Below, piece by piece: positions 65 to 16,063 of a stretch of 16,097 nucleotides of DNA; the first letter of the stretch is position 1; each line of letters starts with the position of its first letter. This DNA is from a candidate division KSB1 bacterium. GTDB taxonomy: Bacteria > Zhuqueibacterota > JdFR-76 > DREG01. Under the pieces are notes generated by a model. The model did no database searches and was not told the DNA's origin. It worked only from the letters and a program-made list of their open reading frames with translations. The position numbers and the translations under genes were made by a program. The stretch covers positions 1 to 16,097 of the forward strand of contig JADFJB010000107.1 in assembly GCA_022566355.1 (NCBI GenBank), in the 5' to 3' direction.

Positions 65-898
65 TTATTCGTTACTAGAGCTATCACTTGCAGTATTATC
101 AGAAGCGATCTTGTCGTCCAGAAAAGATTTTGGATTACGACTTTCCTTTACAAGCCTGTTAGGAGACAAAATTGGCTCATCTACATCAGGTAAATTCAAA
201 TCATTAATGTTTTGACTATCATCTTGTCCAGAATCTTCAGGTTGTCCAGAATCTTCAGGTTCTTGTTGTTCATTTGACATTTTTACTTTCTCCTTTTGGA
301 TATTATATTTTAGTGAAATATATGGGAATGATGACAATATCAGGAAAAAAAATGTATATATTAAAAATCTTATTGATTTGCTGAGTTTTTCGTCTCTAAA
401 ATCATTATTCTTTGAATTGTTCGTAGAACTCTCCTGATATTTGCTCAAAATATAATCGTCAAATTTATCTCTCTCACCTACAAAATTGTATTTCTGTTTA
501 ATTATTTTTTTACTTAACCCATAATCTTTTTGAATCTTCACAATATTTTCTGAATATGTTTTTATTTTGCCCACATCTTTTATTATGTCGTCCGCAACAG
601 GAAGAAAAGAATATTTAAAACCTGTAATACCTCTTGCAAGGTAAAAAAAGGAAATTAGCAAAGAAAGAATAGTTAGGAGAAAAAAGAATAGAAACACAAT
701 TGATACAACTGATGTGTTGAGGTGCCATTTCAATTTAATCAAATCGTTCAGAAAATAGAATGAAGCTCCGGACAACACGATGAATATGGTTGTATTGTAA
801 TTTAATCTTTGAATGATTTTTTCTTTTCTATCCAATTCAAAGTAATAGACTTCCCTTGTTATGTTAATCAAAAGTTCTTTAGAAATGTTTTCTGACAT
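65..898 (-). CDS. Three-TM membrane protein of unknown function with acidic C-terminal tail
   Basis: I do not recognise this 277-aa protein. Its N-terminus is a charged amphipathic stretch (about 1-34, with REVYYFELDRKEK). Two hydrophobic segments follow at about 36-54 and 63-87, then a charged soluble region (about 90-175), a third hydrophobic segment (about 177-195) and an acidic, Ser/Asp/Gln-rich tail (about 200-277) that looks disordered. The tail contains PEDSGQ twice, encoded by a perfect 18-bp tandem duplication. No catalytic motif is visible. No Shine-Dalgarno sequence precedes the ATG at 898. In contrast, the internal in-frame Met207 (ATG at 280-278) has AAAAGGAG 9 nt upstream, so the tail may also be made as a separate 71-aa protein or may once have been its own gene. 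The paired N-terminal membrane segments after a charged helix vaguely recall two-TM effector-type proteins, but that is only a resemblance. It is the first gene of the window and has no evident operon partner. Confidence 0.7.
   Translation of the reverse strand: MSENISKELLINITREVYYFELDRKEKIIQRLNYNTTIFIVLSGASFYFLNDLIKLKWHLNTSVVSIVFLFFFLLTILSLLISFFYLARGITGFKYSFLPVADDIIKDVGKIKTYSENIVKIQKDYGLSKKIIKQKYNFVGERDKFDDYILSKYQESSTNNSKNNDFRDEKLSKSIRFLIYTFFFLILSSFPYISLKYNIQKEKVKMSNEQQEPEDSGQPEDSGQDDSQNINDLNLPDVDEPILSPNRLVKESRNPKSFLDDKIASDNTASDSSSNE
224..259 (-). repeat. 18-bp perfect tandem repeat (2 copies) within the membrane protein gene
   Basis: TTGTCCAGAATCTTCAGG occurs twice in direct succession (224-241 and 242-259). 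The period is a multiple of three, so the copies add an in-frame PEDSGQ duplication to the acidic tail. This is a simple slippage-type expansion that would tolerate copy-number change without frameshift. Confidence 0.9.
278..297 (-). promoter_or_regulatory. Strong internal Shine-Dalgarno and ATG in frame with the membrane protein
   Basis: On the minus strand AAAAGGAG (297-290) lies 9 nt before an ATG (280-278) that is in frame with the larger protein (Met207). It would give a 71-aa acidic protein starting MSNEQQEPED. The start of the full-length protein at 898 has no such site. This suggests an internal translation start or a former gene boundary. The sequence match is clear; its use is inferred. 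Confidence 0.4.
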
Positions 899-1308
899 AT
901 TTTTTTAAATTTTAGTTTTAGAAGTATTTATCAGAAGATTATAAAATTTTTGCTCATAATCTATTTTAAAAAATAGCAGAGACATTTAGATAATTCCACA
1001 CTTTTATTTTTTGTCATGTGAATAAATAGGCGAGACTTATATACGGATATTTGCTCGGACATGTCTTGAACTTCATCGGTGCCGATTCAATTTAAATCAA
1101 TAATTATTAGAGAACCTCAAGGTTATGCGTGATGGGGACTCTGTTTACTTTTACATAAAAAAGAAAAAGGGTGACTTGGAGAATTGAAATGTCTAACATT
1201 TACTTTACTCAAAGCGCTTTATTATGTAGGTCTTTAAAATATTTGATATTATGTATTGTTTTTCTCATGTACTTTTATCCCATATTGAATGATCCCCCAT
1301 ATCAGATT
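899..1308. other. Intergenic region, no recognised gene
   Basis: This 410-bp gap lies upstream of the leftward membrane protein gene and downstream of the leftward MATE gene. I see no RNA gene, convincing promoter or clear terminator. A patch at about 1030-1090 is less AT-rich than its surroundings. A short plus-strand frame at about 1123-1190 reads VMRDGDSVYFYIKKKKGDLEN before a stop, which looks protein-like but has no start and is cut off upstream by a stop. It could be the remnant of a decayed gene. The 63-codon plus-strand frame at 1171-1362 has no support and runs into the MATE gene. Confidence 0.4.
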
Positions 1309-2661
1309 CTACTTTCTATATTTACCTGTTTTTGTAAAATAGTAAAACCTCGACGCATGTGAGATAGCTGCAAAAGTCAAACCTGCAATCATGCCAATCC
1401 ATAACCCTTGTGCACCCATGCTGCGCACGATTCCCAAATAATACCCCAATGGAATGCCAATAATCCAATAAGCAATGATATTGACAAACATAGGAACACG
1501 TGTATCCTTTAAACCTCGCAAAGCGCCCATAGCGCTTGCCTGCAAACCGTCGGAGATCTGGAAAATAGCAGCCATGAGCAATAATTGAGCTGCAACATTT
1601 ATTACCGCCAAATCCGTGCTATATATTTTCACGATGGCGTATGGCAGAAGATACATCATAGCAGCGGTTAGACACATTACCATCACCGAAAGTCCGCCGC
1701 TAACATATCCGGCAATCCTGACACCATCATAATTTTTTTCACCCACTGCAAATCCAACCCTGGATGTGGTGGCAAAAGAAAGTCCCAATGGAATCATAAA
1801 GGTGAGTGACGCAACATTAATTGCAATCTGGTGTCCCGCCATAATGGCAACGCCCAAAGAACCGATGATTAAAGCCGCGATAGCAAACATTCCAACTTCC
1901 ATCCCCAGGCTCATTCCATTTGGAATTCCAATGTGAAGAATCTCCCTCATGTATCTCCAATTTGGCAGGCTCATTTTATGAAATATTCGAAAATGCTGGT
2001 TGTGCCGCATACGGAAGGTGTATATGAGCATCGCGGTTAGCATAGTCCACCAAACCATCGTGGTAGCCCATCCTGCTCCAATAGCGCCTAATTTTGGGAA
2101 TCCAAATTTACCATACATAAGGGCATAATTACCGATAAAATTGACTGGGATTGCTATTAGAGAAAAATACAGGTTGGGTTTGGTAATAGATATTCCTTCA
2201 TTAAAAAATCGCAGGGTGAGATAGGCGAAAGTCGCAGGGAAACACCATGAAATTGCCTTAAGATATCCCATACTAATTGGAATGATTTCGGGTGCAATCT
2301 GCATAAAATGCATGACGATTTCCAGGTTCCGAACCAAAAAAAATGATGGAATTGCAAGCATTTGACTGAGCAACAATCCCTGCCAAACCGTTTTTCCAAT
2401 CTGGTCGATTTTACGTTCGCCATAAAATTGTGCCACTATAGGACTCACCGCTAGCAATACACCGAGCACAACAAGAAAAATGGGGACAAAAAGACTTCTA
2501 CCGATTGCAACAGCTGCCAGATCTTTCGCACTTAAATTTCCCGCCATTACTGTGTCGATAAATCCCAGGGTTTGCTGAGCCAGGAGGGAGACAATGATGG
2601 GTCCACCCAAACTAACCGTTGCACGGAATTCTTTAATGACTGGTGGAGAAAAGATATTCAT
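1309..2661 (-). CDS. MATE family multidrug efflux transporter, NorM type
   Basis: This 450-aa polytopic inner-membrane protein has about 12 hydrophobic segments in two homologous halves and is the normal length for the MATE family. Such pumps exchange Na+ or H+ for cationic drugs, dyes or metabolites. The N-terminal stretch QTLGFIDTVMAG and the following LAAVAIGRSLFVP closely match the NorM/MdtK subfamily. Three acidic residues important in NorM of Vibrio cholerae (D36, E255, D371) appear one position earlier, as D35 (FIDTVMAG), E254 (LGMEVGMF) and D370 (QISDGLQ), which supports a working cation-coupled pump. ATG at 2661 is kept because the protein begins directly with the usual short cytosolic leader; no Shine-Dalgarno sequence is apparent. 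The upstream gap contains several dyads that could bind a regulator. The real substrate cannot be told from sequence. Confidence 0.95.
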   Translation of the reverse strand: MNIFSPPVIKEFRATVSLGGPIIVSLLAQQTLGFIDTVMAGNLSAKDLAAVAIGRSLFVPIFLVVLGVLLAVSPIVAQFYGERKIDQIGKTVWQGLLLSQMLAIPSFFLVRNLEIVMHFMQIAPEIIPISMGYLKAISWCFPATFAYLTLRFFNEGISITKPNLYFSLIAIPVNFIGNYALMYGKFGFPKLGAIGAGWATTMVWWTMLTAMLIYTFRMRHNQHFRIFHKMSLPNWRYMREILHIGIPNGMSLGMEVGMFAIAALIIGSLGVAIMAGHQIAINVASLTFMIPLGLSFATTSRVGFAVGEKNYDGVRIAGYVSGGLSVMVMCLTAAMMYLLPYAIVKIYSTDLAVINVAAQLLLMAAIFQISDGLQASAMGALRGLKDTRVPMFVNIIAYWIIGIPLGYYLGIVRSMGAQGLWIGMIAGLTFAAISHASRFYYFTKTGKYRK

Positions 2662-2774
2662 CGAAATAGAATTTTTATATTAATCTATTGTAAGTACCAT
2701 AAATAAAGGGTATCCCTTGAAATTAATCAAAGTCCATGAATGGACGTATTTATACCTTGTCTTGTAATAATCTC

Positions 2775-2792
2775 AGGATCATTCATGATCCT
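2775..2792. repeat. Inverted repeat AGGATCAT-TC-ATGATCCT
   Basis: Perfect 8-bp arms are separated by 2 bp. The symmetry and length resemble a binding site for a dimeric repressor. It lies about 115-130 bp upstream of the MATE start codon on the minus strand. Confidence 0.5.
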
Positions 2793-2835
2793 TAAAGCAA
2801 AACCAGCGTTACCGTTCACAGCAACACAGCAATAA

Positions 2836-2855
2836 TTGGTTAATTAATTAACCAA
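2836..2855. repeat. Perfect 20-bp palindrome
   Basis: TTGGTTAATTAATTAACCAA is its own reverse complement over all 20 bases. Its 12-bp core TTAATTAATTAA recurs inside another perfect palindrome between recN and murA (14688-14707). It may be an operator for the MATE gene or a transcript-end structure for the helicase gene. Confidence 0.55.
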
Positions 2856-2961
2856 CGCGGAAATATCAAACAGTGAAGATATGTTTATTATTTAATATCC
2901 CAATTTGTTATTAAAGATTACAAATCCCCCAAAAAAATCTCGGGAATAAGGTTTCGGATAA

Positions 2962-5900
2962 TCATAAAAACAACTCTAATTGTAGTTTAGGCTTCTCCTT
3001 TTTGATGGTTTTTCTTGTGACAGGCATTTGCGTAAACTCTTTTAAAGTATTTTCGATATCGTATAGATAGTGTGACGGCATATTAGTCATTCTCTGGCCA
3101 AAAAGATACCTGGTTTTAGCATTCACTAAAATTAGTTTTTCTTGAGCTCGCGTCATGCCGACATAAAAAAGCCGGCATTCTTCATCCGGTTCAGACAACT
3201 TATCATCCTTCAGGTACGGAATCAAATTTTCTTCACATCCAACGATAAAAACAACAGGGAATTCAAGTCCTTTTGAAGAATGAAGGGTCATTAAACTAAC
3301 TCGATCGGATTTTGGATTATAATCATCCACAGCGTTGTACAAGCTGGCATATTCTAAAAAATCACCAAGGCGGTTTTCAAAAGAAACAGCTTTTAAGATC
3401 AGTTGCTTGATGCGTTGTTGAGTATCTTCGCTAACTTTTCTTGAATTTGTACCTAGGATAAAAGTATGAATGGATTCAATTAATTTTGAGACCGGTTTTT
3501 CTTCAGCATCATTTTTCAATTCATACAGGAAATCAATAGTTTTCCGGATTCGATGTTTAGAGGAAGTGTTCAGGTTTAATTCATCTAATTTTTGTAGGAT
3601 TAGATCCCTGGATATTTCCATGGAACCGTTCTGATTAATAGTGTCTGTAAAGTTTACTTTTTTATCATTCAGATCTGGATTTAATATTTCTTCTATAAAA
3701 AACAGCGAGTTCGTATCGTGGAGAAACCATAAAAAAGATAGGATTTCTTTGATCTCTTTTTTTTGGTAAAATGATACTTTCCCTGTTATCTGGAAGGGAA
3801 TTCCGGATCGTTTGAAAGCGACTTCCAAAAGCCTACTTTGCGCTCCCAATCTATATAGAACGGCAAAATCAGAAAAGGATCTTGTTTTCTCATCATCGTT
3901 TTCGGCTACGCGACCAGAGTCAATCGAAAAATAGCTTGTACCACCAACCATTTGCTCAATTTGATGCACCACGTATTCGGCTTCCGCTTTATCCGTAGGC
4001 GCTCTGTAAACATTCAGTTTCGTATCACTAACCAGGGTTGACCATAATTTATCATTTTTCCGGACCTGGCTGTTCGCAATCACTTGTCCGGAAGCATTTA
4101 AGATATTTTGGGAAGAACGATAGTTCTGATTCAAATAGATTGTTTTCGCATGAGGATAATCCTCACGAAATTTAAGGAAGTATTCTCGATTGGCGCCTCG
4201 AAATCCATAGATTGCTTGATCCGGGTCTCCGATCACACAAAGATTACTCCCTTCAGAAATTAGGTTTTGTAGCAATCTATACTGGGCATGGTTGATATCT
4301 TGATATTCATCCACCGAAATCCAAGGGTATCGTTTTTGATACCTCTTTAAAACATCAGAGTATTTATTAAACAAAGTAACGGTTTTTGAAATTAAATCAT
4401 TGTAGTCTAACAGGTTGTTTTCTTGCAATCTCAATTCATAATGCTGGTAGTAAGATTGAAATTCGAAATCATCTTTAAAAACTATTTCGAATTCCGGAGA
4501 ATCAGGCAATAGGAGCTTGTTTTTAGCTGTAGAGATCTTTTCGAGGTTTTTCAATATCTCGCTTTCCTTCAATTTTGGATTCGCTTGTTTTAGAATCTTT
4601 TTAGCGTCTGAATCACTGCAAATTGAAAAATTAGATTGTAAACCTATTTGATGCCCCTCTGAACGTAAAATCATCGCACAAAAAGCATGAAAAGTTTTAA
4701 TTGTAATCCGTTTTGAAGTCTCCTCATTTAACAATCTAGACAGTCGTTGTGCCATTTCTTCGGCGGCTTTATTTGTAAAAGTGATGGCCAGAATATTTTC
4801 TGGTGAAATATTTCTTTCAATAATTAAAAAGGCTATTCGGTATGTAAGTGTGTGCGTTTTTCCTGTTCCCGGACCAGCTAGGATGATCAGAGGAAGATCC
4901 GTGTTTTGCACCGCTTCTTTTTGCTGTTCGTTTAGGTTTGATAATATCCTGGATTTTATGATCTTTTCTGAAGGTTTGCTTTCATTATAATCTTTTATTG
5001 ATCGACTGTCAGAATTGATGTTCGGAATCGTAGTTTGGATTTGTTGTTGATTCCATAAATCAAAATCAACTTTCTCCGAAACTTCGTTACTGTTTAATTT
5101 TTCTTTTTTTTTCCTATCTTTCTTTTTAGAAACAAAAAACCCTAACTGGTTAGAAAAATCCTCACGTTCTTTGTCATCAAATAACCGGATAACCCCATAC
5201 TCGCCATCAAAGCCGGCTACTGGTTTAATCTGTCCTTCTCGCATCCTTTTAATGGCCTCGGAAAAGACAGTTCCGCCCGTTTGAGCAATGTCTTCCAAAG
5301 GAATGTCCTGCAAAATGGATAATTCGGATCCGAGTTTGGACAATAGTAAATTATAACATTCCTGCACCCTTTTTGTATTCACGCCCATATTAAAAACTTC
5401 AGCAACGACTTCCGGTAAAGGGATCAGACTTTTAAACGGATGAACCTTTGCCGGTTTCTGCCCATAATTTCGGTCCGCCAATTCCTGGATGCGATGCATG
5501 ACTCCAACTGTGACAAGTCTGCCACACTTGGGGCAAATGCCATTATGCTTTTGAGTAGTTTCGGGATCCCAGTTTATATCACATTTTCGATGGCCATCGA
5601 AATGATATTTCCCTTCCTCAGGAAAAAATTCAATTGTGCCTAAAAAGGAATCCGATCCTTTATTCTTTAATGCGTTAAAAATTGTTGGATAGGAGAGATC
5701 AGTATCAAAAATATTGGCCTCCCTGCCTAATTTCTGCGGTGAATGGGCGTCGGAATTTGAAACCAAAGTATAATCATCCAAAATTGAAAGGCGCCAATTC
5801 ATAGGCGGGTCGGATGAAAGTCCTGTCTCCAAAGCAAAAATGTGGGGTGTCAAATCATCAAAACATTCTCCAACAGAATCAAAGCCGGATTTTGAACCCA

Positions 5901-6417
5901 GCAATGCGAACCAGGGTGTCCAAATGTGGGCGGGGATCAAATAAGCCTGTGGGTCTGTTTGCAGGACGATTTCAAGTAAATCCCGAGAACTCAGCCCTAA
6001 AATTGGCCGGCCATCCGATCTGATATTACCGATTTTTTCTAGCTCGGCCTGGAATTTTTCGACAGCTGCAAAGCTGGGCAAAAAAACCACATTGTGGATC
6101 TTACGAACTTTATCGTTCTTTTTGTATATATTGCTGATTTCACCAGCCAGCATAAAACGGACTTCACCCTGGCAAGCTTTGTGCACTTCCTTTTGTAGCG
6201 GTTTTGCAATGTCATCTTTTAGTCGAAACAACCCCTCTTCGGCTGGTTCTAATTTCTCTTTCATCTCCTCCAGCCATCCAGGATGAGCGATATCGCCAGT
6301 CCCAACTACTGTTATCCCTTTGAGTTGAGCCCATTTGGTTAAATGTTCAAAATTTAAGGTCTTGCTTGTTGCTCGTGAGAAATAAGAATGGATGTGTAAA
6401 TCTGCAATAAATTTCAT
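2962..6417 (-). CDS. EndoQ-like PHP nuclease fused to UvrD/PcrA-type DNA helicase
   Basis: This 1151-aa two-part protein probably acts in DNA repair. Residues 1-430 match the PHP-type endonuclease Q / YqxK family, which nicks DNA 5' of deaminated bases such as hypoxanthine and uracil. Visible metal-site motifs are DLHIHS (H8, H10), GTGDIAHPGW (D42, H45), GEIS (E93), PAHIW (H164) and NSDAH (D223, H225). A zinc-finger-like C279...C295-P-K-C298 follows. A lysine-rich linker (about 430-490) leads to a full superfamily 1A helicase: LNEQQ (495-499), Walker A AGPGTGKT (514-521), VDEYQD (702-707), GDPDQAIYGFRG (730-741), NYRSS (765-769), TLHSSKGLEF (1044-1053) and VGMTRA (1086-1091). The spacing between motifs IV and V leaves room for a 2B domain. 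The protein ends in QLELF-L, a likely clamp-binding peptide. ATG at 6417 has AAGGA 9 nt upstream. Nuclease substrate and coupling to unwinding are inferred from the two families. Confidence 0.93.
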   Translation of the reverse strand: MKFIADLHIHSYFSRATSKTLNFEHLTKWAQLKGITVVGTGDIAHPGWLEEMKEKLEPAEEGLFRLKDDIAKPLQKEVHKACQGEVRFMLAGEISNIYKKNDKVRKIHNVVFLPSFAAVEKFQAELEKIGNIRSDGRPILGLSSRDLLEIVLQTDPQAYLIPAHIWTPWFALLGSKSGFDSVGECFDDLTPHIFALETGLSSDPPMNWRLSILDDYTLVSNSDAHSPQKLGREANIFDTDLSYPTIFNALKNKGSDSFLGTIEFFPEEGKYHFDGHRKCDINWDPETTQKHNGICPKCGRLVTVGVMHRIQELADRNYGQKPAKVHPFKSLIPLPEVVAEVFNMGVNTKRVQECYNLLLSKLGSELSILQDIPLEDIAQTGGTVFSEAIKRMREGQIKPVAGFDGEYGVIRLFDDKEREDFSNQLGFFVSKKKDRKKKEKLNSNEVSEKVDFDLWNQQQIQTTIPNINSDSRSIKDYNESKPSEKIIKSRILSNLNEQQKEAVQNTDLPLIILAGPGTGKTHTLTYRIAFLIIERNISPENILAITFTNKAAEEMAQRLSRLLNEETSKRITIKTFHAFCAMILRSEGHQIGLQSNFSICSDSDAKKILKQANPKLKESEILKNLEKISTAKNKLLLPDSPEFEIVFKDDFEFQSYYQHYELRLQENNLLDYNDLISKTVTLFNKYSDVLKRYQKRYPWISVDEYQDINHAQYRLLQNLISEGSNLCVIGDPDQAIYGFRGANREYFLKFREDYPHAKTIYLNQNYRSSQNILNASGQVIANSQVRKNDKLWSTLVSDTKLNVYRAPTDKAEAEYVVHQIEQMVGGTSYFSIDSGRVAENDDEKTRSFSDFAVLYRLGAQSRLLEVAFKRSGIPFQITGKVSFYQKKEIKEILSFLWFLHDTNSLFFIEEILNPDLNDKKVNFTDTINQNGSMEISRDLILQKLDELNLNTSSKHRIRKTIDFLYELKNDAEEKPVSKLIESIHTFILGTNSRKVSEDTQQRIKQLILKAVSFENRLGDFLEYASLYNAVDDYNPKSDRVSLMTLHSSKGLEFPVVFIVGCEENLIPYLKDDKLSEPDEECRLFYVGMTRAQEKLILVNAKTRYLFGQRMTNMPSHYLYDIENTLKEFTQMPVTRKTIKKEKPKLQLELFL

Positions 6418-7000: not shown

Positions 7001-7020
7001 CAATCAAATTTGAAGCTGTA

Positions 7021-7140
7021 AATCTTCAGGGCGAGGTGAAAGTCCTCACCGGCGGTGAAAGCCCGCGACTCCCGGTGTAAGCCGGGACTGATTCGGTGTA
7101 ATTCCGAAGCCGACGGTTAAAGTCCGGATGGAAGAAGATT
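7021..7140 (+). ncRNA. FMN riboswitch (RFN element)
   Basis: The conserved FMN aptamer is seen in full: GGGCGAGGTGAAAGTCC, CACCGGCGGT, AGCCCGCGA, an extra stem CCCGGTGTAAGCCGGG, then GATTCGGTGTAATTCCGAAGCCGACGGTT... through AGTCCGGATGGAAGAAG. The closing helix P1 pairs AATCTTC (7021-7027) with GAAGATT (7134-7140). Bound FMN stabilises this fold and lowers expression of the riboflavin genes downstream. The expression platform is the intrinsic terminator at 7163-7201. The 5' strand AATCTTCAGGGC (7021-7032) is also fully complementary to GCCCTGAAGATT (7165-7176), the 5' arm of that terminator, which gives a ready antiterminator when FMN is absent. Confidence 0.98.
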
Positions 7141-7162
7141 GAAATGAGGTATGTTTATCGCA

Positions 7163-7242: not shown

Positions 7243-8343
7243 GTGAGTCAGATTAATTCAAATAAAAAAGATCATTACTTTATGCGGAGAGTAATGAAAT
7301 TAGCAAAAAAAGGTGAGGGATCTACATCTCCGAATCCGCTTGTGGGTACGGTTGTTGTAAAAGACGGACAGATCGTTGGGGAGGGTTATCATCGCAATTA
7401 TGGCGGGTCGCATGCAGAAGTATTTGCCTTAAACAATGCCGGTTCAGATGCTTATCTATCAGACCTCTATGTAAATCTGGAGCCCTGTAATCATTACGGG
7501 AAAACGCCGCCATGTGTTAAGCGGGTTATTGAATCTGGTGTTTCAAGAGTTATTATAGCCAATCTAGATCCAAATCCGATGGTCAATGGGGCTGGGCTCA
7601 AAAAACTACAAGATGCTGGAATCTCAATTGAGACAAATATCTTAGCTGATGATGGCGAAAAATTAAATGAAGCTTATTTCAAATACGCACGGACTGGAAA
7701 ACCATTTGTTATTCTAAAATGGGCCCAGAGTCTGGATGGCAGGATAGCAACCCGTTCTTTTCATTCTAGCTGGATTTCAAACGAAAAATCAAGAAAGAAA
7801 GTCCACCAGTTGCGCAAATCAGTGGATGCTGTATTAATAGGAGCCGGTACTGTTAAACATGATAACCCTCAACTTACGGTTCGCCACGTAAAAGGAAAGC
7901 AACCCTGGCGCATCGTCGTTAGTAGGAATCTGGATATTCCATTCGAATCTAAATTGTTTAATGACGAATTCAGAAACAAAACAGTTGTTTTTACAGCTAA
8001 AACTGATGCAAAAAAAATAAATAAATTTGAAAAGCTGGGTGTCCATCTCGAATTCATAAATAATGAAAATGATAGAAGTACATTCAACCAAATACTAGAA
8101 TGGATGTCAAAGAAGAACCTGATCTCTCTGCTTGTAGAAGGTGGTAAATCAATACTCACTTCTTTCATTAAAACCGGACTTGCTGATAAGTTAATGATAT
8201 TTGTGGCGCCTAAATTGATCGGAGAAGGAATTGATGCAATTGGCGATCTTTCAATCCACTCCATGATGGATAGCACTGAACTTAAAAAGACGTCATACAA
8301 AAAAATCGGGACAGATATTTTGATAGAAGGTTATTTGCATTAA
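7243..8343 (+). CDS. ribD: Bifunctional pyrimidine deaminase / reductase RibD
   Basis: RibD carries out the second and third steps from GTP to riboflavin. It deaminates the diaminopyrimidine 5'-phosphate and then reduces the ribosyl chain with NADPH. The 366 aa are the usual bifunctional length. The deaminase domain (about 10-145) has the zinc site H57-A-E59, P81-C82 and C91 (HAEV, EPCNHYGKTPPC), with E59 as proton shuttle. The reductase domain (about 153-366) has ILKWAQSLDGRIAT, WISN and IGAGTVKHDNPQLTVR. The start used here is GTG at 7243, with only a weak upstream A-rich stretch. An ATG at codon 14 is an alternative, but starting there would begin directly at MRRVMKLA and remove residues that usually precede the first helix. 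This is the first gene of the riboswitch-controlled operon; ribE begins 2 nt after its stop. Confidence 0.96.
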   Translation: MSQINSNKKDHYFMRRVMKLAKKGEGSTSPNPLVGTVVVKDGQIVGEGYHRNYGGSHAEVFALNNAGSDAYLSDLYVNLEPCNHYGKTPPCVKRVIESGVSRVIIANLDPNPMVNGAGLKKLQDAGISIETNILADDGEKLNEAYFKYARTGKPFVILKWAQSLDGRIATRSFHSSWISNEKSRKKVHQLRKSVDAVLIGAGTVKHDNPQLTVRHVKGKQPWRIVVSRNLDIPFESKLFNDEFRNKTVVFTAKTDAKKINKFEKLGVHLEFINNENDRSTFNQILEWMSKKNLISLLVEGGKSILTSFIKTGLADKLMIFVAPKLIGEGIDAIGDLSIHSMMDSTELKKTSYKKIGTDILIEGYLH

Positions 8344-8345
8344 AC

Positions 8346-8990
8346 ATGTTTACAGGATTAATAGAAAAAGTCGGTCAAATTTCAGGGATTCAAGAAATTC
8401 CTGATGCACTTCAATTTAAGATTTCATGTGAACCCATCGCTAAAGAATTAAATATTGGTGATAGTATTGCGGTCGATGGGGTGTGTCTAACCGCAATAAA
8501 AAAGGAAAAGAATAATTTTTGGGTCGAGGCAGTTCGTGAAACGTTGAATAGAACTTCGCTTTGTAAGAGAAAAAAGGGAGATTTGGTTAATCTGGAACAA
8601 TCACTCCGAATCGGACAAAAATTGGGCGGCCATTTTGTTCAAGGCCATGTTGATGCCGCCGGAACGGTTGTGGGCTTAAAGCAGCAGGGTTCGATGCAAT
8701 GGTTAACTGTCGAATACCCGGATTCGTTAAATCGCTACATTATTGAGAAAGGCTCGATTGCGATTGATGGAATCAGCTTAACGGTTGCAAGAAAAGAGAG
8801 ATCAAAAATTAGCATTGCGATCATTCCACATACTTTTAGTAATACTAATTTAAAGACTAAAAGTATTGCAGATTTGGTGAATTTGGAAGTGGATATGATG
8901 GCAAAATATATAGAAAACATGATGTCACCACAGGTTAAGGAGAATGAGGCAAAACTTTCTGAAGATTGGATTAAGGAACAGGGCTTTTAA
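8346..8990 (+). CDS. ribE: Riboflavin synthase, alpha chain type
   Basis: This enzyme makes riboflavin by dismutation of two 6,7-dimethyl-8-ribityllumazine molecules, returning one pyrimidine precursor. The 214-aa protein starts with the family's MFTGLIEKVG and has two similar beta-barrel halves. The first (about 1-90) carries VDGVCLTA with C47, and the second (about 97-187) carries GGHFVQGHVD and IDGISLTV. The C-terminal helix after about 188 is a little longer than usual. Its ATG lies 2 nt after the ribD stop and has no separate good Shine-Dalgarno sequence, so translational coupling to ribD is likely. Confidence 0.96.
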   Translation: MFTGLIEKVGQISGIQEIPDALQFKISCEPIAKELNIGDSIAVDGVCLTAIKKEKNNFWVEAVRETLNRTSLCKRKKGDLVNLEQSLRIGQKLGGHFVQGHVDAAGTVVGLKQQGSMQWLTVEYPDSLNRYIIEKGSIAIDGISLTVARKERSKISIAIIPHTFSNTNLKTKSIADLVNLEVDMMAKYIENMMSPQVKENEAKLSEDWIKEQGF

Positions 8991-9007
8991 TAATAAGATA
9001 TTAAGAC

Positions 9008-9024
9008 AAAGGACTAGAACAATG
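9008..9024 (+). promoter_or_regulatory. Ribosome binding site deciding the ribBA start
   Basis: AAAGGA (9008-9013) lies 8 nt before ATG at 9022. The alternative upstream ATG at 8944, inside ribE, has AAGGAG (8937-8942) but only 1 nt away, too close to work well. Confidence 0.65.
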
Positions 9025-10248
9025 GGATCAAATGGTAATGGTGAACACAACTTTAATACAATAGAAGAAGCAGTTAATAGTTTTCGAAAGGGTGAAATCA
9101 TCATTGTTGTCGACGATGAGAATCGTGAAAATGAAGGAGATTTTATAACCTCAGCAACTTTCATCACGCCGGAAAAAATTAATTTTATGGCTACTCATGG
9201 GCGGGGGCTAATTTGTGTGCCCATGTTGGAGGATAGATTAAAACAATTAAATTTAAAGCAAATGGTTAGTGGCATTAGCGATAAAATATGCAATTTTACC
9301 ATCTCGGTAGATGCAAAAAATAACACTACAACCGGGATCTCAGTATTTGATAGGGCTGAAACGGTTCGAGTCCTAATCGATCGGAATACAGAACCGAAAG
9401 ATTTATTGCGGCCTGGGCACATTTTCCCATTAATAGCTCATGAGGGGGGTGTGCTGCAACGAGCTGGCCATACGGAAGCTACTGTTGATTTAGCAAAATT
9501 AGCCGGAATTTATCCGGCAGGAATCCTTTGTGAAATTATGAACGAAGATGGTACAATGGCCAGGGTTCCGGAGTTGATTCAGATTGCTAAAAAATTTCAA
9601 ATGAAAATCATAACAATCAAAGAGTTAATAGCCTATCGAAAAAGAAATGAAAAATTAATTAACCTTGTGGCCTCAGTAGATTTTCCTTCGCGTTTTGGTC
9701 ATTTTAAATTGAATTTGTTTGAAAGCACAGTAGATCATTCACAACACTTAGCATTGGTAAAAGGAGACATCAATTCTCAGGAACAAGTCCTGGTAAGATT
9801 ACATTCTCAATGTTTGACTGGAGATTTATTGCATTCACTTCGGTGTGATTGTGGTGAACAATTAGAGACTTCCCTCAAACTGATTAATGAAACAGGGAAT
9901 GGTATTTTACTTTATATGTGCCAGGAAGGAAGAGGAATTGGATTGACCAATAAGATTAAGGCATATGCACTACAGGATTTGGGTAAAGATACCGTGGAAG
10001 CAAATGAAGTATTGGGTTTCGAAGCTGATTTAAGGGATTACGGAATTAGCGCTCAGATATTAAAAGAATTGGGAGTTCAAAAAATATTACTTCTAACAAA
10101 CAATCCACAAAAAGTCGTGGGATTGAAAGAGCATGGTTTTGATGAGGTTAAACGTCGCCCTCTTGAAATCCAGCCAAATAACAATAATAAAAGATACCTG
10201 ACCACTAAAAGAGATAAGCTGGGTCATCTCATTTTAGAAGATGTTTAG
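9022..10248 (+). CDS. ribBA: Bifunctional DHBP synthase / GTP cyclohydrolase II RibBA
   Basis: RibBA feeds both branches of riboflavin synthesis. Its N-terminal domain makes 3,4-dihydroxy-2-butanone 4-phosphate from ribulose 5-phosphate, and its C-terminal domain opens GTP. I chose ATG at 9022 (408 aa), not the in-frame ATG at 8944. AAAGGA lies 8 nt upstream of 9022, the shorter protein starts close to the conserved domain, and the longer form would overlap ribE by 47 nt with a non-family leader. DHBP synthase motifs are DDENRENEGDF (31-41), HGRGLICVPM (59-68) and RAGHTEATVDLA (147-158). Cyclohydrolase II motifs are the zinc cysteines C264, C275 and C277 (SQCLTGD, LRCDCG), QEGRGIGL (301-308), Y315, R338 and LLTNNPQKV. 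Residue 300 is Cys where many homologues have Arg or Asn. Confidence 0.96.
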   Translation: MGSNGNGEHNFNTIEEAVNSFRKGEIIIVVDDENRENEGDFITSATFITPEKINFMATHGRGLICVPMLEDRLKQLNLKQMVSGISDKICNFTISVDAKNNTTTGISVFDRAETVRVLIDRNTEPKDLLRPGHIFPLIAHEGGVLQRAGHTEATVDLAKLAGIYPAGILCEIMNEDGTMARVPELIQIAKKFQMKIITIKELIAYRKRNEKLINLVASVDFPSRFGHFKLNLFESTVDHSQHLALVKGDINSQEQVLVRLHSQCLTGDLLHSLRCDCGEQLETSLKLINETGNGILLYMCQEGRGIGLTNKIKAYALQDLGKDTVEANEVLGFEADLRDYGISAQILKELGVQKILLLTNNPQKVVGLKEHGFDEVKRRPLEIQPNNNNKRYLTTKRDKLGHLILEDV

Positions 10249-10285
10249 ACCAGGGAGTTTATTATATTAACCTTCCGGAGGGTGA

Positions 10286-10756
10286 ATGCTGCAACCTATT
10301 GAAGCACAATTAAACGCTAGTGGGAAAAAATTTGCTATTGTAATTTCCCGTTTTAATGAGTTTATTACTAGTAAACTTCTTGAAGGAGCAAAAGATTGTA
10401 TCATACGTCATGGTTGTAATGAGGATGAAATCCAAACAATTTGGGTGCCGGGTTCTTTCGAAATTGCCCTAATCGCAAAGATGTTGGCGGAAACAAAAAA
10501 ATATGATTCTATTATCTGTTTAGGCGCAGTGATCCGAGGGTCGACACCTCATTTTGATTATGTTGCCGGAGAAGTATCAAAAGGAATTGCTAGTGTGTCA
10601 TTATCTACAAATTTACCTGTTATTTATGGTATTATTACGGCAGATTCGATTGAACAAGCAATTGAACGTGCAGGAACAAAAATGGGGAACAAAGGTTGGG
10701 ATGCTGCATTAACTGCTATTGAAATGGCCAATCTTGCGGATATTATTAAAAAATAA
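10286..10756 (+). CDS. ribH: 6,7-dimethyl-8-ribityllumazine synthase RibH
   Basis: RibH condenses the pyrimidinedione with dihydroxybutanone phosphate to give lumazine, the substrate of riboflavin synthase. The 156 aa are the normal subunit length for this oligomeric, often capsid-forming enzyme. Visible motifs are SRFNEFIT (21-28), WVPGSFEIA (53-61), [14 protein letters not shown] (80-93, catalytic H89) and [11 protein letters not shown] (127-137, with R128 and K132 for phosphate binding). GGAGG (10277-10281) gives a strong ribosome binding site 4 nt from the ATG, shorter than ideal. It is the last riboflavin gene; the next ORF starts directly after its stop. Confidence 0.96.
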
Positions 10757-12970
10757 ATGAAAAGATTTTTATTATATACGTACAATTTTTTAGTTATTTT
10801 TACATTCACCTTTGGATTTTTTTCACAAATATTAGGACAAAGTAGGGAATGGCAATCTATAACAAACAAATCATCCATTGAAGATATAACGATCAAAGAT
10901 AATCTATTAATCTGTGCCACTAATGGCGGGGTACTGATTTTTGATCGAAACACTGAAGAGTATGTCGGTTCATTTACCAACACGGAAAACCTTAGCCATA
11001 ATCACGCCATCCAGGTTGAAATTGATGACAACAACAACTGGTGGTTTGGTCTGCAAAATGGCGATTTGAACAAATACAATATAAGTGAAAACAAATGGGA
11101 GCTTTTCAGAGATTTTGACAGATTATCCATTCATGACATGGAATTGCATGGAGATAGTCTGTTCATAGCCTTGAATATAGGTGTGAGTGTTTTTATACTC
11201 AGTAAACAAGAAGCTAAAGAGACCTATAAGAAAATGGGTAACATCCCCGTAGAAATTGACGCTTTTGACGCATTGATTGAATGGCCATTTATCTATGTGG
11301 CAACGGATTTTGGCGTCTCCGTCGCGGATTTAAGGCAAATAAATCTGAAAGCGCCACAAAGTTGGGATAACTTTACCATCTCAGACGGTTTGGCTTCAAA
11401 TAAGATCAATGCATTAGAATCTTTTAATGGTGATATTTTTATTAGCACCGAAAGAGGTGTTCAAAAATTGAAAAACGGAGAAATTCAAACGGTTTACTCC
11501 TCAATTCTTAGCAGTGCAGTTGCAGCTTTTTCTAAAACTGAAAATGAATTGTACGCTGCAGTCAATAAATATGTTTATCAATATGATCCGGATTTGGACC
11601 GATGGGATCGCCAATTAACTTTAACCGACTTGATTACGACTTTCGTCGTCGATGAAAATGGCGATTTATGGTTGGGTGCTGAAAAGAAAGGCTTAATTAA
11701 ATGGGAAAAAAATTTGGATGAATTAGATTTTTTTATTCCTGATGGTCCGGCAGGTAATAATTTCGCAGATTTGTTTTTTAATTCGGAAGGAAAATTATGG
11801 TGTGCTAGTGCTTCTCAATTTGGAAATGGCGTTTATGTTTTTGATGGTGAAAAATGGGCAAATTTCACTAAGTCGAGTGGTGACCTGCCAGGAAATGAAT
11901 CAGTTACAGTAATAGAGGATCAAAACAAAAATATTTGGGTCGGAAGTTGGGGGAAAGGTGTGTTTAAATTTGGTTCTAATAATTCAATAGAAGTGTTTAA
12001 CGAAACGGGTGGTCACTTATCCGGTATTCGAGAAAATTTGAGTTTTGTAGTTGTGAACGAAATGGCCATAGACCAGGAGGGTACCCTTTGGATGGGGAAT
12101 TTTAATGCATTCAATGGAAATAAATTGGTAGCAGTTACAAAAGATGGTCAATGGATTAAATTTGGTTTTGAGGATGGAATATCATCTGCAAATCCTATAT
12201 CAATTGCCATTGATCAGCTAAACCGTAAATGGGTAGGAACAGACGGGGGTGGTATTTATGTCTATGATGACAATCGAACGCCAATTGATAAATCAGATGA
12301 TACAGTAGCCATCCTGGATGGATCTCTTGGATTGTCCTCAAACATTATAAAAGCAGTTGCCATAGATGAATTCAACGTGGTTTGGATTGCTACCAGTGAA
12401 GGCCTGGAGTATTATCAAAACGGAGTAGTTCGACAGCAGTTTGGTTTGATCACAAACGAAATTAATACAATTGCCATCGATCCTGTTGGAAATAAATGGG
12501 TAGGTACATCTTCCGGGTTTAGCATTCTGGGCCGGGATGATTTTCGCTGGACTCATTATACGACTGAAAACAGCCCGCTGGTTAGTTCAAATGTGGTGAG
12601 CTTTGCATTCAACAGAAAGACCGGAACATCTTTTATCGCCACATCAAATGGCCTTTCTATTTTTCAAACCCTATTTGTGGAACCATATGAAAAGTTGGAG
12701 CAATTGACTTTGTATCCAAATCCTGTAATGATCGGAGCTTTCGAAACCAATGTTATTGTGGATGGACTTTGCAGGAATTGCGATCTGAATATTTATACCG
12801 CAAGCGGATTTTTGGTTCGAAAATTGGTGACAGCGTCAAAAGGCGGCCGTGCAATTTGGGATGGCAGGAACAATGAAGGTGATTTAGTAGCCAGCGGCAT
12901 TTATTTGGCAGTTGCGGTTGATCCTGACGGCATAGCAAAGAGTGGGAAAATTGCAGTAATCAATCAATAA
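10757..12970 (+). CDS. Secreted beta-propeller protein with FlgD-Ig / type IX-like C-terminal domain
   Basis: This 737-aa exported protein is related to the two-component-regulator propeller / PorZ-like group. A hydrophobic signal peptide spans about 1-28 (cleavage probably near LGQ-S). About a dozen propeller blades follow. They are marked by W-G/V-based strands such as WWFGL, LWLGAE, IWVGSWGKGVFKF, LWMGNF, KWVGTDGGGIYVYDD, VWIATSEG and KWVGTSSG. The C-terminal domain (about 650-737) has LYPNPV, LNIYTASG, IWDGRNNEG and SGIYLAV before a final KIAVINQ. That pattern is typical of FlgD-Ig or type IX secretion sorting domains in FCB bacteria. I see no kinase or DNA-binding part, so it is not itself a classical regulator. 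It starts at TAA-ATG directly behind ribH and lies 8 bp before recN, so it is probably in the same transcript. In Bacteroidetes, PorZ works in surface attachment of type IX cargo; that role here is only a possibility. Confidence 0.85.
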   Translation: MKRFLLYTYNFLVIFTFTFGFFSQILGQSREWQSITNKSSIEDITIKDNLLICATNGGVLIFDRNTEEYVGSFTNTENLSHNHAIQVEIDDNNNWWFGLQNGDLNKYNISENKWELFRDFDRLSIHDMELHGDSLFIALNIGVSVFILSKQEAKETYKKMGNIPVEIDAFDALIEWPFIYVATDFGVSVADLRQINLKAPQSWDNFTISDGLASNKINALESFNGDIFISTERGVQKLKNGEIQTVYSSILSSAVAAFSKTENELYAAVNKYVYQYDPDLDRWDRQLTLTDLITTFVVDENGDLWLGAEKKGLIKWEKNLDELDFFIPDGPAGNNFADLFFNSEGKLWCASASQFGNGVYVFDGEKWANFTKSSGDLPGNESVTVIEDQNKNIWVGSWGKGVFKFGSNNSIEVFNETGGHLSGIRENLSFVVVNEMAIDQEGTLWMGNFNAFNGNKLVAVTKDGQWIKFGFEDGISSANPISIAIDQLNRKWVGTDGGGIYVYDDNRTPIDKSDDTVAILDGSLGLSSNIIKAVAIDEFNVVWIATSEGLEYYQNGVVRQQFGLITNEINTIAIDPVGNKWVGTSSGFSILGRDDFRWTHYTTENSPLVSSNVVSFAFNRKTGTSFIATSNGLSIFQTLFVEPYEKLEQLTLYPNPVMIGAFETNVIVDGLCRNCDLNIYTASGFLVRKLVTASKGGRAIWDGRNNEGDLVASGIYLAVAVDPDGIAKSGKIAVINQ

Positions 12971-12978
12971 TACATTAA

Positions 12979-14682
12979 ATGCTCAAAAAATTATTTATTA
13001 AGAATTTTGCACTCATTGAGGAATTAAATCTCGAATTCTCCAATGGATTTAATGTGCTTACCGGCGAAACCGGAGCTGGTAAATCCATGGTTATTAATGC
13101 GTTGAATTCAATTCTTGGGGAAAAAGTATCGCCAGGTATGCTACGTTCTGGTACTGATAAAGCAATTGTTGAAGGAGTATTTCACGGCATTCCGGAAAAA
13201 ATTGAATCGTTCTTAATTGAAAATGAGATCGATGTTTTTGAAAACGAACTAATTTTGCGTAGAGAATTAAATGAATCCGGCAGATCCAGAACTTTTATCA
13301 ATGATTGTATAACCCAAATATCTATACTTAAAAGTGCATCAGAAATTCTCGTCGATTTACACGGCCAACATGAGCATCAATCTTTATTAAAAACTGACAA
13401 CCATTATGAAATTATTGATAGCTTCGCTAATTTGGATCAACTGTCGAGATCTATGAAGAACCAATACGATGGAATTATTGAACACCAACAAAAGCTGCAT
13501 ACTTTGCAATCCAAAGCGGCAACCGTAAGAGAAAAACAGGAATTTATAAGATTCCAAATAAACGAAATTGAGTCGTTAAATTTATACTCTGGCGAAGATG
13601 AGGAGCTTTCCCATGAAGAAAAAGTCCTGGCTAATTATGAAAAATTAAGCTCATTCTGTAACGAGATCTACAAGATTTTGTATGATCAAGAGCATGCAGC
13701 TATGGCAACAATTGATGCTTCAATCAATAAGCTGGAAGAATTAGAAAAAATCGATCAGTCTTTCTCGAATATGACCAAGAATCTTAGAACAGCCAACATC
13801 CATATAGAAGAAGCAGCTCGGTTTGTGAATGATTATTTATCCAAAGTTGAATTTGACCAGGAAAGATTGGAAAGTATTCGGGTACGGTTAATTGAAATTC
13901 AAGGGATTCAAAAAAAGTATGGCATGCCAATTCCTGAAATTCTGGAAAAAGTAGAGTCATTAAACAAAGAGCTCGCTGAAATTAAAAATCTAGATGATAC
14001 ATTGGAAATTCTGCAAAAACAACTTTCTACCGGAAAATCGGAACTACAGAATTTTTGTCTTGAATTATCCGAGCAACGAAAAAAATCAGCCACCACATTC
14101 CAAGTTCAAATAGAAAATATCATCCGGCAAATTGGAATGGAAAATGCTTTTATCAAGATTGTTTTTGAAAATTATCCACCAAATGATGGGGGTGGCATAT
14201 TGCTTCCGGACGGCCATATTGCAAAACAAAATGGCATCGATAATATTGAACTCTATGTCTCCACAAACCCAGGTGAGGGTTTTAAACCTTTAGCTGAAGT
14301 AGCTTCAGGTGGAGAATTATCTAGGATTATGTTGGCGATAAAATCCGTACTGGCCGGGAAAGATAAAATAGGTGTTCTGGTGTTTGACGAAATTGATATT
14401 GGCATTTCCGGTAGAATTGCTGAATCTGTTGGCCGAAAATTGAAAGAATTGTCAGCTACCCACCAGGTAATTTGTGTGACCCATCTACCTCAAATTGCCA
14501 GTTTTGCTGATAAACATTTTTCAGTGCGTAAGATTGTTAGTAATGGAACAACCATTACCCAAGTTCATGAATTAGCGCGAACAGATCGGGTCAAAGAAAT
14601 CGCAAGTTTGATTGGTGGAGAGAAGGTGACTGACACAGTCATTAAAAATGCTGAAGAAATGCTCAATATCAACTCGATTTAA
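12979..14682 (+). CDS. recN: DNA repair protein RecN
   Basis: RecN is an SMC-like ATPase that acts early in repair of DNA double-strand breaks in the cytoplasm. The 567 aa are slightly longer than the E. coli protein. The N-terminal ATPase half has LKKLFIKNFALIEEL and Walker A GETGAGKS (29-36). The middle (about 150-375) is rich in heptad-like charged helices with a break, as expected for the short coiled coil. The C-terminal half has the signature ASGGELSRIMLAIK (442-455), Walker B VLVFDEIDIGISG (466-478) and VTHLPQIAS (500-508). It starts 8 bp after the propeller gene with no clear ribosome binding site, so coupling is likely. A 127-bp gap to murA follows. Confidence 0.96.
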   Translation: MLKKLFIKNFALIEELNLEFSNGFNVLTGETGAGKSMVINALNSILGEKVSPGMLRSGTDKAIVEGVFHGIPEKIESFLIENEIDVFENELILRRELNESGRSRTFINDCITQISILKSASEILVDLHGQHEHQSLLKTDNHYEIIDSFANLDQLSRSMKNQYDGIIEHQQKLHTLQSKAATVREKQEFIRFQINEIESLNLYSGEDEELSHEEKVLANYEKLSSFCNEIYKILYDQEHAAMATIDASINKLEELEKIDQSFSNMTKNLRTANIHIEEAARFVNDYLSKVEFDQERLESIRVRLIEIQGIQKKYGMPIPEILEKVESLNKELAEIKNLDDTLEILQKQLSTGKSELQNFCLELSEQRKKSATTFQVQIENIIRQIGMENAFIKIVFENYPPNDGGGILLPDGHIAKQNGIDNIELYVSTNPGEGFKPLAEVASGGELSRIMLAIKSVLAGKDKIGVLVFDEIDIGISGRIAESVGRKLKELSATHQVICVTHLPQIASFADKHFSVRKIVSNGTTITQVHELARTDRVKEIASLIGGEKVTDTVIKNAEEMLNINSI

Positions 14683-14687
14683 AATCA

Positions 14688-14707
14688 AAATTTAATTAAT
14701 TAAATTT
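14688..14707. repeat. Perfect 20-bp AT palindrome after recN
   Basis: AAATTTAATTAATTAAATTT is fully self-complementary and begins 5 bp after the recN stop. Its first 14 bases (AAATTTAATTAATT) recur at 14725-14738. With no G or C in the stem it would be a weak terminator. The later T-rich stretch (14741-14772) could assist termination, or the pair could be a protein-binding site upstream of murA. Confidence 0.5.
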
Positions 14708-14747
14708 AGTGATTAGATGTCTTGAAATTTAATTAATTCCTTCTATT

Positions 14748-14780
14748 TTTGTTTTAGTCTTTTTCATTTTTCTACATTTG
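14748..14780 (+). promoter_or_regulatory. Candidate murA promoter of Bacteroidetes type
   Basis: TTTG (14748-14751) and TACATTTG (14773-14780) are 21 bp apart and fit the TTTG / TAnnTTTG consensus for the primary sigma factor of Bacteroidetes. The start of transcription would fall about 25 nt before the murA ATG. The region is T-rich, so a chance match is possible. Confidence 0.4.
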
Positions 14781-14809
14781 TCGTCCAAATCTAATAAAAC
14801 AAAATATTT

Positions 14810-16063
14810 ATGGATAAGTTTGTAATTCATGGAGGTAAGAAACTTTATGGCACTGTAGCAATTTCGGGTGCAAAAAATGCCATTTTGCCACTTCTAGCCG
14901 CTACCTTGCTTGCTCCCGGGTCCTATTCGTTTTCAAATGTTCCAAATCTGCGTGATGTACGAACCATGGTTCGGTTATTGACACAGATGGGGGTAACAAC
15001 AAAAATATCGGACAATAACCTGGATGTAACGGTTCCTGAGAAACATTCTTTGGAAGCACCCTACGATTTAGTCCGAACCATGCGAGCTTCTTTTTATGTA
15101 TTAGGTCCTATTGTTGCAAGATTTGGATATGGTAAAGTCTCCCTTCCGGGTGGCTGTGCCTGGGGGCCGCGTCCGGTCAACTTCCACCTTGAGGGATTGA
15201 AAAAGATGGGAGTGGATATTGAGATCGACCAGGGTTATGTCATCGGGAAATGTGACCAACTGCATGGTGCACACATTTCATTTGATATCCCCAGCGTTGG
15301 AGCAACCGGCAATCTTCTAATGGCGGCGACCCTGGCGAAAGGCACAACAATTCTGGAAAATGTGGCAATGGAACCTGAAATTCAACAGTTAGCTGAATTT
15401 TTAATCAAAATGGGTGCACAAATTTCAGGAATCGGAACCAAACAGTTCGAAGTAATAGGTGTGCCTGCACTACATCCTGCGAGCATGGAAATCATCCCTG
15501 ACCGTATTGAAGCCGGAACATATTTAGCGTGTGCAGCCATAGCTGGTGGAGAAGTGACGATTACAAATGTAAATCCGGATTATTTATCAGCTGTTTTGTC
15601 GAAGCTTGAGTCTGCAGGCGTGAACTTAACTCAAAATGAGGATAGGATTAGAATTCAATCGGATGGTAGATTGAATCCAATAAATATTACCACAGACGTT
15701 TACCCCGGCTTTCCAACCGATATGCAGGCACAATGGATAGCTATGATGACCACAGCCAGGGGGTCATCGACGATCACCGATAAAATTTATTTTGATCGCT
15801 TTACCCATGTAAGCGAACTCAATCGTTTAGGCGCCAATATTGAAGTTGATGGCAATACTGCAATTGTTCGTGGAGTAGCGGAATTAAAGGGAGCGACAAC
15901 TATGTCTACCGATCTAAGGGCAAGCGCTTCATTAATTCTTGCCGGTTTAATTGCACAGGGAAAGACAGAGATTCTCCGGGTTTATCATATTGATCGCGGT
16001 TATGAAAAAATTGAAGAAAAACTCCGAGGGCTTGGAGCAGATATTCAAAGAGAAAAAGAATAA
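14810..16063 (+). CDS. murA: UDP-N-acetylglucosamine 1-carboxyvinyltransferase MurA
   Basis: MurA moves enolpyruvate from phosphoenolpyruvate to UDP-N-acetylglucosamine, the first committed step of peptidoglycan synthesis in the cytoplasm. At 417 aa it is the usual length. The active-site residues line up with E. coli MurA: K22-N23 (SGAKNAILPLL), C116 in the mobile loop (GGCAWGPRP), R121, D304 (FPTDMQAQ) and R396 (IDRGYEKI). The loop cysteine, the target of fosfomycin, is present, which predicts sensitivity at the level of this enzyme. The usual small residue after GGCA is Trp here. ATG at 14810 is well supported because the protein begins with the family's MDKFVIHGGKKLYG. It likely has its own promoter in the 127-bp gap after recN. 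No gene follows in the last 34 bp. Confidence 0.97.
   Translation: MDKFVIHGGKKLYGTVAISGAKNAILPLLAATLLAPGSYSFSNVPNLRDVRTMVRLLTQMGVTTKISDNNLDVTVPEKHSLEAPYDLVRTMRASFYVLGPIVARFGYGKVSLPGGCAWGPRPVNFHLEGLKKMGVDIEIDQGYVIGKCDQLHGAHISFDIPSVGATGNLLMAATLAKGTTILENVAMEPEIQQLAEFLIKMGAQISGIGTKQFEVIGVPALHPASMEIIPDRIEAGTYLACAAIAGGEVTITNVNPDYLSAVLSKLESAGVNLTQNEDRIRIQSDGRLNPINITTDVYPGFPTDMQAQWIAMMTTARGSSTITDKIYFDRFTHVSELNRLGANIEVDGNTAIVRGVAELKGATTMSTDLRASASLILAGLIAQGKTEILRVYHIDRGYEKIEEKLRGLGADIQREKE

Follow-up and report, generated by a model that had tools for sequence, protein, structure and literature searches.

Introduction

Enzymes of the endonuclease Q type (EndoQ; PfuEndoQ, TkoEndoQ, MacEndoQ, and B. pumilus EndoQ, covered by TIGR00375 and COG1379) cut DNA 5' of a lesion and leave a 3'-OH, with the damaged nucleotide at the 5' end (PMC4357722, PMC8307549). 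With the lesion in that position, repair requires that the strand be displaced or cut once more, and those who discovered EndoQ proposed that the nick is followed either by strand displacement, through a polymerase/Fen1 route, or by removal with a helicase (PMC4357722). Here, we describe a gene in which an EndoQ-type module and a UvrD/PcrA-type helicase are joined in one reading frame. It lies in a stretch of 16,097 nucleotides (nt), referred to below as the window, that spans positions 1 to 16,097 of contig JADFJB010000107.1 from a candidate division KSB1 bacterium (phylum Zhuqueibacterota; assembly GCA_022566355.1).

Separate parts of this arrangement have been described elsewhere. In archaea, PCNA binds EndoQ via a C-terminal PCNA box, with a dissociation constant (KD) of 55 nM, and stimulates it; beta-clamp motifs have already been remarked in bacterial EndoQ (PMC4858679). 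PcrA acts at the nicks made by relaxases and unwinds DNA from the nick (PMC3542172), and its Tudor domain binds RNA polymerase and UvrB (PMC8318588).

Judged by its sequence and predicted structure, the window protein is an EndoQ-type endonuclease with an intact active site, joined to a complete 3'-5'-type superfamily 1A (SF1A) helicase core and carrying two accessible peptides of the clamp-binding type. We consider it likely that such a protein would act as a single-chain machine that excises deaminated and abasic nucleotides while tethered to the replication sliding clamp. Both modules belong to known families, and fused database entries surely exist. A preliminary description of this DNA, made from the letters alone, had supposed that fusions occur in databases without a biochemical description; we found the fusion in many genomes and no published account of an EndoQ-helicase fusion in the literature searched, with subscription literature lying outside that search.

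Architecture and conserved residues of the fusion protein

The fusion gene occupies positions 2962 to 6417 of the minus strand as a single uninterrupted open reading frame with an ATG start and a stop codon at 2962 to 2964, exactly where the preliminary description had placed it, and encodes 1,151 amino acids (aa). That description had also proposed that an EndoQ-type nuclease and a complete UvrD/PcrA-type helicase share one chain, on which sequence matches, residue mapping, and predicted structure agree; it mentioned neither the two clamp-binding-type motifs nor the loss of the Tudor region reported below. The AlphaFold model has a mean predicted local distance difference test (pLDDT) score of 83 and shows two well-predicted modules with a disordered stretch between them. 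The predicted template modeling (pTM) score of 0.59 leaves the mutual placement of the modules unpredicted.

The EndoQ module (aa 1 to 413; 5179 to 6417, minus strand) comprises PHP nuclease, zinc, and C-terminal domains. The TIGR00375 profile matches aa 5 to 410 (E value of 2.4e-52), and the solved PfuEndoQ structures (5zb8 and 7k30) align to aa 5 to 415 (E value of 6e-57). A structure search with the full model was dominated by the helicase, but EndoQ was nonetheless present, with a Z score of 42.3 and a root mean square deviation of 2.8 over 388 residues of 5zb8_B. Residue roles were taken from PMC4357722 and PMC8307549, and all mapped PfuEndoQ residues are identical in the window protein: D6, H8, H10, E76 (E93 in the window protein), H84 (H108), H139 (H164), E167 (E197), G169 (G199), S171 (S201), D193 (D223), and H195 (H225). 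The PHP metal-site motifs that the preliminary description had read are thus present with every mapped ligand intact, including the SDAH metal-binding motif at aa 222 to 225 (5743 to 5754, minus strand), and the metal ligands and catalytic residues are kept in the window protein and 39 relatives. H164, G199, and S201 are likewise invariant in these 40 bacterial sequences; the corresponding PfuEndoQ residues (H139, G169, and S171) form the pocket reported to exclude normal bases (PMC8307549).

What had been described as a zinc-finger-like segment proved to be real. The zinc site (aa 276 to 298; 5524 to 5592, minus strand) has the form H276-x2-C279 ... C295-x2-C298, so that the ligands are His-Cys3 rather than the four Cys of PfuEndoQ. 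The ligand positions are the same as in PfuEndoQ; the histidine stands in for Cys249 and is invariant in the 40 sequences compared. The site likely still binds zinc. With both the zinc domain and the base-pocket residues present, the module does not correspond to a PHP phosphatase lacking the EndoQ zinc region. Its TIGR00375 score is 178.6 bits, below the equivalog cutoff of 326.6 bits, and we class it as an EndoQ-type module rather than a TIGR00375 equivalog. The cutoff is likewise not reached by any genome searched in the window's phylum or in our Desulfobacterota sample, and automatic annotation may therefore overlook the EndoQ part. Compared with known EndoQ enzymes, the module has a whole-length match, the same fold, the tested catalytic and base-pocket residues, a zinc domain, and, immediately behind the EndoQ domain, a motif of the clamp-binding type; it differs in its fusion to a helicase, its His-Cys3 site, and its subcutoff score.

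A variable linker (aa 429 to 486; 4960 to 5133, minus strand), predicted to be disordered, connects the modules, and pLDDT falls below 50 at aa 426 to 486 and in the tail at aa 1134 to 1151. The basic character noted earlier for this linker holds for the window protein (KKKDRKKKEK) but does not extend to the relatives, among which the linker sequence is not kept.

The SF1A UvrD/PcrA-type helicase (aa 487 to 1132; 3022 to 4959, minus strand) has Pfam matches to UvrD-helicase (1.1e-82) and UvrD_C (1.9e-50). As the preliminary description had stated, the SF1A motifs are intact: Q, I, Ia, Ib, II, III, IV, V, and VI are all present, including a GPGTGKT Walker A sequence at aa 515 to 521 (4855 to 4875, minus strand), and 40 full-length fusions show no variation in the key residues of these motifs. 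The model matches Deinococcus radiodurans UvrD with a Z score of 43.9 over 611 residues. The PcrA profile (TIGR01073) scores 534 bits over aa 492 to 1140, under its 911-bit cutoff, and is covered only at positions 2 to 650 of 725, the Tudor-carrying C-terminal region being missing. Canonical PcrA proteins of the window's phylum also stay just below the cutoff (up to 901 bits), which is why we give more weight to the missing region and to the tree described below than to the cutoff itself.

The fused helicase thus has the full motif set and the 1A/1B/2A/2B fold of the PcrA, UvrD, and Rep helicases (TIGR01073, TIGR01075, and TIGR01074), but it differs from canonical PcrA in forming a separate clade, lacking a Tudor-type C-terminal region, ending in a clamp-type motif, and following an N-terminal EndoQ module. 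The loss of the Tudor domain and the gain of a clamp tag indicate a dedicated paralog beside the cell's ordinary PcrA, which is, on the whole, a probable explanation. An ordinary PcrA (a 745-aa frame on contig C52) is encoded elsewhere in the same genome, which rules out the fusion as a replacement for the cell's PcrA.

Recurrence of the fusion across bacterial phyla

Our surveys used frame length as a proxy for fusion, with the helicase confirmed directly in a subset of loci. Of the 82 genomes searched in the window's phylum, 69 carry EndoQ, and 55 of the 69 matches fall within open frames of 750 aa or more, which exceeds what EndoQ by itself would occupy. EndoQ was found in 165 of 247 Desulfobacterota genomes, where 61 of the 150 frames listed reach at least 900 aa, and a sample of 197 Actinomycetota yielded about four clear cases, mostly fused.

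A scan of named genomes returned 80 EndoQ loci. Taxa were assigned here from record titles, which can be wrong for metagenome-assembled genomes (MAGs); on that basis, fusions occur in records titled Chloroflexi, Latescibacterota, Desulfobacterota, Myxococcota, Gemmatimonadota, Fibrobacteres, Elusimicrobia, Binatia, Planctomycetes (Pirellulaceae), Bacteroidales/Chitinophagales, Cloacimonetes, Caldithrix, Alphaproteobacteria, and Actinomycetes. The fusion is therefore present in more than 12 phyla besides the window's, at about 55 to 75% identity in the EndoQ part and 30 to 50% in the helicase, the EndoQ part evolving more slowly. Members include the complete isolate genome of Desulfonema magnum and the named strains Saccharopolyspora hirsuta and Actinoallomurus soli. 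This recurrence across genomes and phyla rules out a gene peculiar to the window's genome. An assembly or binning artifact was ruled out as well, given the dozens of independent genomes with the fusion, a MurA on the contig whose nearest relative is in the genome's own family, and a gene order found in relatives.

In a Peregrinibacteria MAG (candidate phyla radiation; locus L118, 6001 to 9721), EndoQ overlaps with a UvrD-like frame of 865 aa whose last residues are QLELFS, an arrangement unusual for such small genomes.

Motifs of the sliding-clamp-binding type

The extreme C terminus of the window protein reads QLELF-L. The QLELF motif (aa 1146 to 1150; 2968 to 2982, minus strand) lies in the predicted disordered tail and fits the QL[S/D]LF type at positions 1, 4, and 5, which matter most in the beta-clamp consensus (PMC3919608). 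Of 79 complete fusions, 66 have a Q[LMI]x[LMI]F motif within their final 15 residues, compared with 0 of 24 canonical PcrA proteins and 1 of 1,001 other open reading frames from the same loci, counts that take no account of relatedness. Several actinobacterial fusions terminate instead in QLRLL or QLSLL; variant clamp motifs have been reported for Actinobacteria (PMC3919608).

A second, clamp-binding-like motif, QLGFF (aa 424 to 428; 5134 to 5148, minus strand), follows the EndoQ domain at the hinge, in the position of the archaeal EndoQ PCNA box. The form Q-x-x-[hydrophobic]-F occurs there in 58 of 79 fusions and is weaker than the C-terminal motif; across 40 fusions, conservation of Q424 and of F428 is 90% or higher. 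The hinge motif was anticipated by the remark on beta-clamp motifs in bacterial EndoQ (PMC4858679), whereas the helicase-end motif, and the presence of two such motifs on one chain, appear to be new.

The archaeal EndoQ-PCNA complex (PMC4858679) is similar to the fusion in that a damage nuclease has a sliding-clamp motif ending its EndoQ domain. In the fusion, known here from sequence, the putative partner is instead the bacterial beta clamp, and a second motif, closer to the consensus, is carried by the helicase. The PCNA tethering of archaeal EndoQ may thus have a bacterial beta-clamp counterpart.

In about 10 loci from Desulfobacterota or "Deltaproteobacteria," a cluster of the form rdgC-like - X - dnaN (clamp) - gyrB lies divergent to the fusion gene, a neighborhood that is possibly linked to replication. 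At L090, L092, L096, L102, and L127, an RdgC-like gene, a 174-aa gene, dnaN, and gyrB lie at about 800 to 5900, upstream of the fusion and divergent to it.

A proposed model for excision repair and its alternatives

We propose that the EndoQ module would flip out a uracil, hypoxanthine, xanthine, or abasic residue and incise immediately 5' of it, so that one side of the nick has a 3'-OH and the other a damaged end with a 5' phosphate. The fused helicase would then load at the nick onto the undamaged strand, track 3'-5' along this intact strand so as to move downstream of the lesion, and displace the damaged strand from its 5' end. This displacement would resemble the action of PcrA at a RepD nick, where PcrA tracks on the intact strand. 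A 3'-5' helicase can remove the downstream strand only by tracking on the intact strand, and the fusion would thus supply the step that is missing after the EndoQ nick. The clamp would keep the machine at newly made DNA, where a polymerase could extend the 3'-OH, after which the displaced flap would be cut and the gap sealed. We infer the nicking, the loading, the direction, and the clamp binding from parts that are supported by sequence and predicted structure. That one chain could recognize damage, nick, and peel off the damaged strand had been suggested in the preliminary description.

The partnership of the RepD or NicK relaxase with PcrA in rolling-circle and integrative and conjugative element (ICE) replication offers a parallel, since a nickase is paired there with PcrA as the nuclease and helicase are here. 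It differs in that the relaxase is a separate, sequence-specific protein that sits covalently on the 5' end, whereas the fusion is one chain whose nicks are expected at lesions. That EndoQ and a helicase are fused in a conserved way and bear clamp-binding-type tags suggests that, in many bacteria, the nick is followed by strand displacement at the clamp. More tentatively, and with considerable doubt, we speculate that the fusion represents a widespread, undescribed bacterial repair pathway: a single molecule held on the clamp would locate the deaminated or abasic base, incise the DNA 5' of it, and unwind the strand that carries the damage. Both binding clefts of the dimeric beta clamp could then be filled by the two motifs, with the nuclease on one side of the ring and the helicase on the other, for postreplicative strand replacement. 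If so, helicase-driven excision would exist alongside base excision and nucleotide excision repair as a parallel route.

Several observations weigh against the one-chain repair model. The zinc site has a His where PfuEndoQ has a Cys, and the TIGR00375 score falls short of the cutoff. Unfused EndoQ is found in many bacteria, some without an adjacent helicase gene, and a helicase is therefore not obligatory for EndoQ function. Nearly all fusion-bearing genomes also encode uracil-DNA glycosylase (UDG), which would make uracil repair redundant, and the exclusion between EndoQ and endonuclease V (EndoV) described below is not reproduced in Desulfobacterota. The motif counts carry the relatedness of the sequences with them, and the dnaN neighborhood adds little because it is restricted to one related group.

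The order of events could also be reversed, with the helicase acting first, with or ahead of the fork, and exposing single-stranded DNA that EndoQ scans and cuts at deaminated bases. Clamp motifs at both module ends and the dnaN-gyrB neighborhood in some Desulfobacterota would suit such a replication-coupled role, as would the ability of EndoQ to cut uracil and hypoxanthine in single strands (PMC11354406). We nevertheless regard it as unlikely: EndoQ acts poorly on abasic sites in single-stranded DNA (PMC11354406, PMC6202378), EndoQ structures contain bent duplex DNA (summarized in PMC8307549), and cutting a single-stranded template would break the fork. That the EndoQ module has drifted, either mainly to incision at abasic sites or oxidized bases or to a PHP 3'-5' nuclease that trims ends during unwinding, would account for its low TIGR00375 score, for the His in place of the zinc ligand Cys249, and for the presence of UDG and PcrA in the same genomes. 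The tested metal ligands and the pocket residues equivalent to PfuEndoQ H139, G169, and S171 are, however, invariant in the 40 bacterial sequences, and the EndoQ part has evolved more slowly than the helicase part, which together make drift quite unlikely.

A nuclease that works with a UvrD-family helicase also recalls Gabija GajA-GajB and other defense systems of this kind, and the fusion could in principle cut and unwind uracil-containing or modified DNA of phages or plasmids. UvrD-family cross-matches to Gabija GajB models and the antiviral role suggested for Bacillus EndoQ (PMC8307549) are in keeping with this idea. Yet the GajB match (310 bits, against 534 bits for PcrA) spans the helicase only and is a generic UvrD cross-match; the nuclease fold is different, as is the helicase clade by score. 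The neighbors are riboflavin, recN, and murA genes here and dnaN-gyrB in Desulfobacterota, with no defense genes among them, and no copy was found in 72,556 plasmids or 50,697 phages, so that a defense function seems improbable. A neutral joining of two neighboring repair genes, free of any mechanistic coupling, could explain the variable linker and the existence of separate EndoQ genes; we consider it highly improbable, as both the fusion and its helicase motifs persist in many phyla, split EndoQ and helicase genes remain adjacent, and clamp-type motifs are retained at both module ends.

Co-occurrence with other deamination repair enzymes

UDG was detected in 81 of the 82 genomes of the window's phylum (80 above the cutoff). 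The link to missing Ung that the preliminary description had suggested therefore fails, and the fusion as a replacement for UDG was ruled out.

The corresponding suggestion for EndoV fared differently in the two samples. In the window's phylum, EndoV is present in 12 of 69 EndoQ-positive and 8 of 13 EndoQ-negative genomes (Fisher p = 0.002, not tree-corrected), and it is also rarer alongside EndoQ among genomes at least 90% complete (p = 0.007); these tests treat as independent genomes that are related. All six relatives in the window's order have EndoV and lack EndoQ, and the window genome shows the reverse. Among 247 Desulfobacterota genomes, the exclusion was not reproduced (p = 0.17; p = 0.09 for fused forms only). 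We retain the replacement of EndoV by the EndoQ fusion as a lead.

In the Saccharopolyspora hirsuta genome (the source of locus L132), an EndoV match at G083:C6:142004-142552 lies inside a 724-aa frame, much longer than EndoV, which is possibly an EndoV fusion.

Evolutionary history

The trees behind the following account were built quickly and have long branches. Fusion helicases and those of split pairs fall into a single clade (Shimodaira-Hasegawa-like approximate likelihood ratio test [SH-aLRT] support of 99), apart from 24 canonical PcrA proteins (99). Fused EndoQ domains group at 94% support, together with a few split or solo members, and EndoQ and helicase tree distances are correlated (r = 0.77; 0 of 2,000 permutations as high). 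Where EndoQ is separate, a UvrD helicase is the next gene on the same strand in 7 of 80 loci, with spacing from a gap of about 90 nt to an overlap. One early fusion, with later splits and losses, would fit these sequence data better than many unrelated fusions, the number of events not being fixed.

The closest match to the window's EndoQ module comes from a different family within the phylum (f12, about 71 to 74%), and EndoQ was found in none of the six relatives searched from the window genome's order. For MurA, which is encoded on the same 16-kb contig, the nearest match is in the window genome's own family (72%) and the next in its order (67%). The fusion gene is native to this genome and was probably acquired horizontally. 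Transfer within the phylum is the simplest reading, the alternative being losses in the other members of the order.

Genomic surroundings

The immediate neighbors of the fusion gene are MATE and riboflavin genes. A flavin mononucleotide (FMN) riboswitch (Rfam RF00050, 114.6 bits) at 7018 to 7143 on the plus strand lies upstream of ribD-ribE-ribBA-ribH. These genes, a propeller protein with a PorZ-like N-terminal match, recN, and murA occupy 7243 to 16063 on the plus strand, and the rib-propeller-recN-murA order is common to four relatives (G002, G003, G006, and G018) and, in part, to G005.

Near the other end of the window, at 65 to 898 on the minus strand, is a gene for a 277-aa protein with no Pfam match and with hydrophobic stretches resembling transmembrane segments. 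The DNA there is lower in G+C (28%) than the rest of the window.

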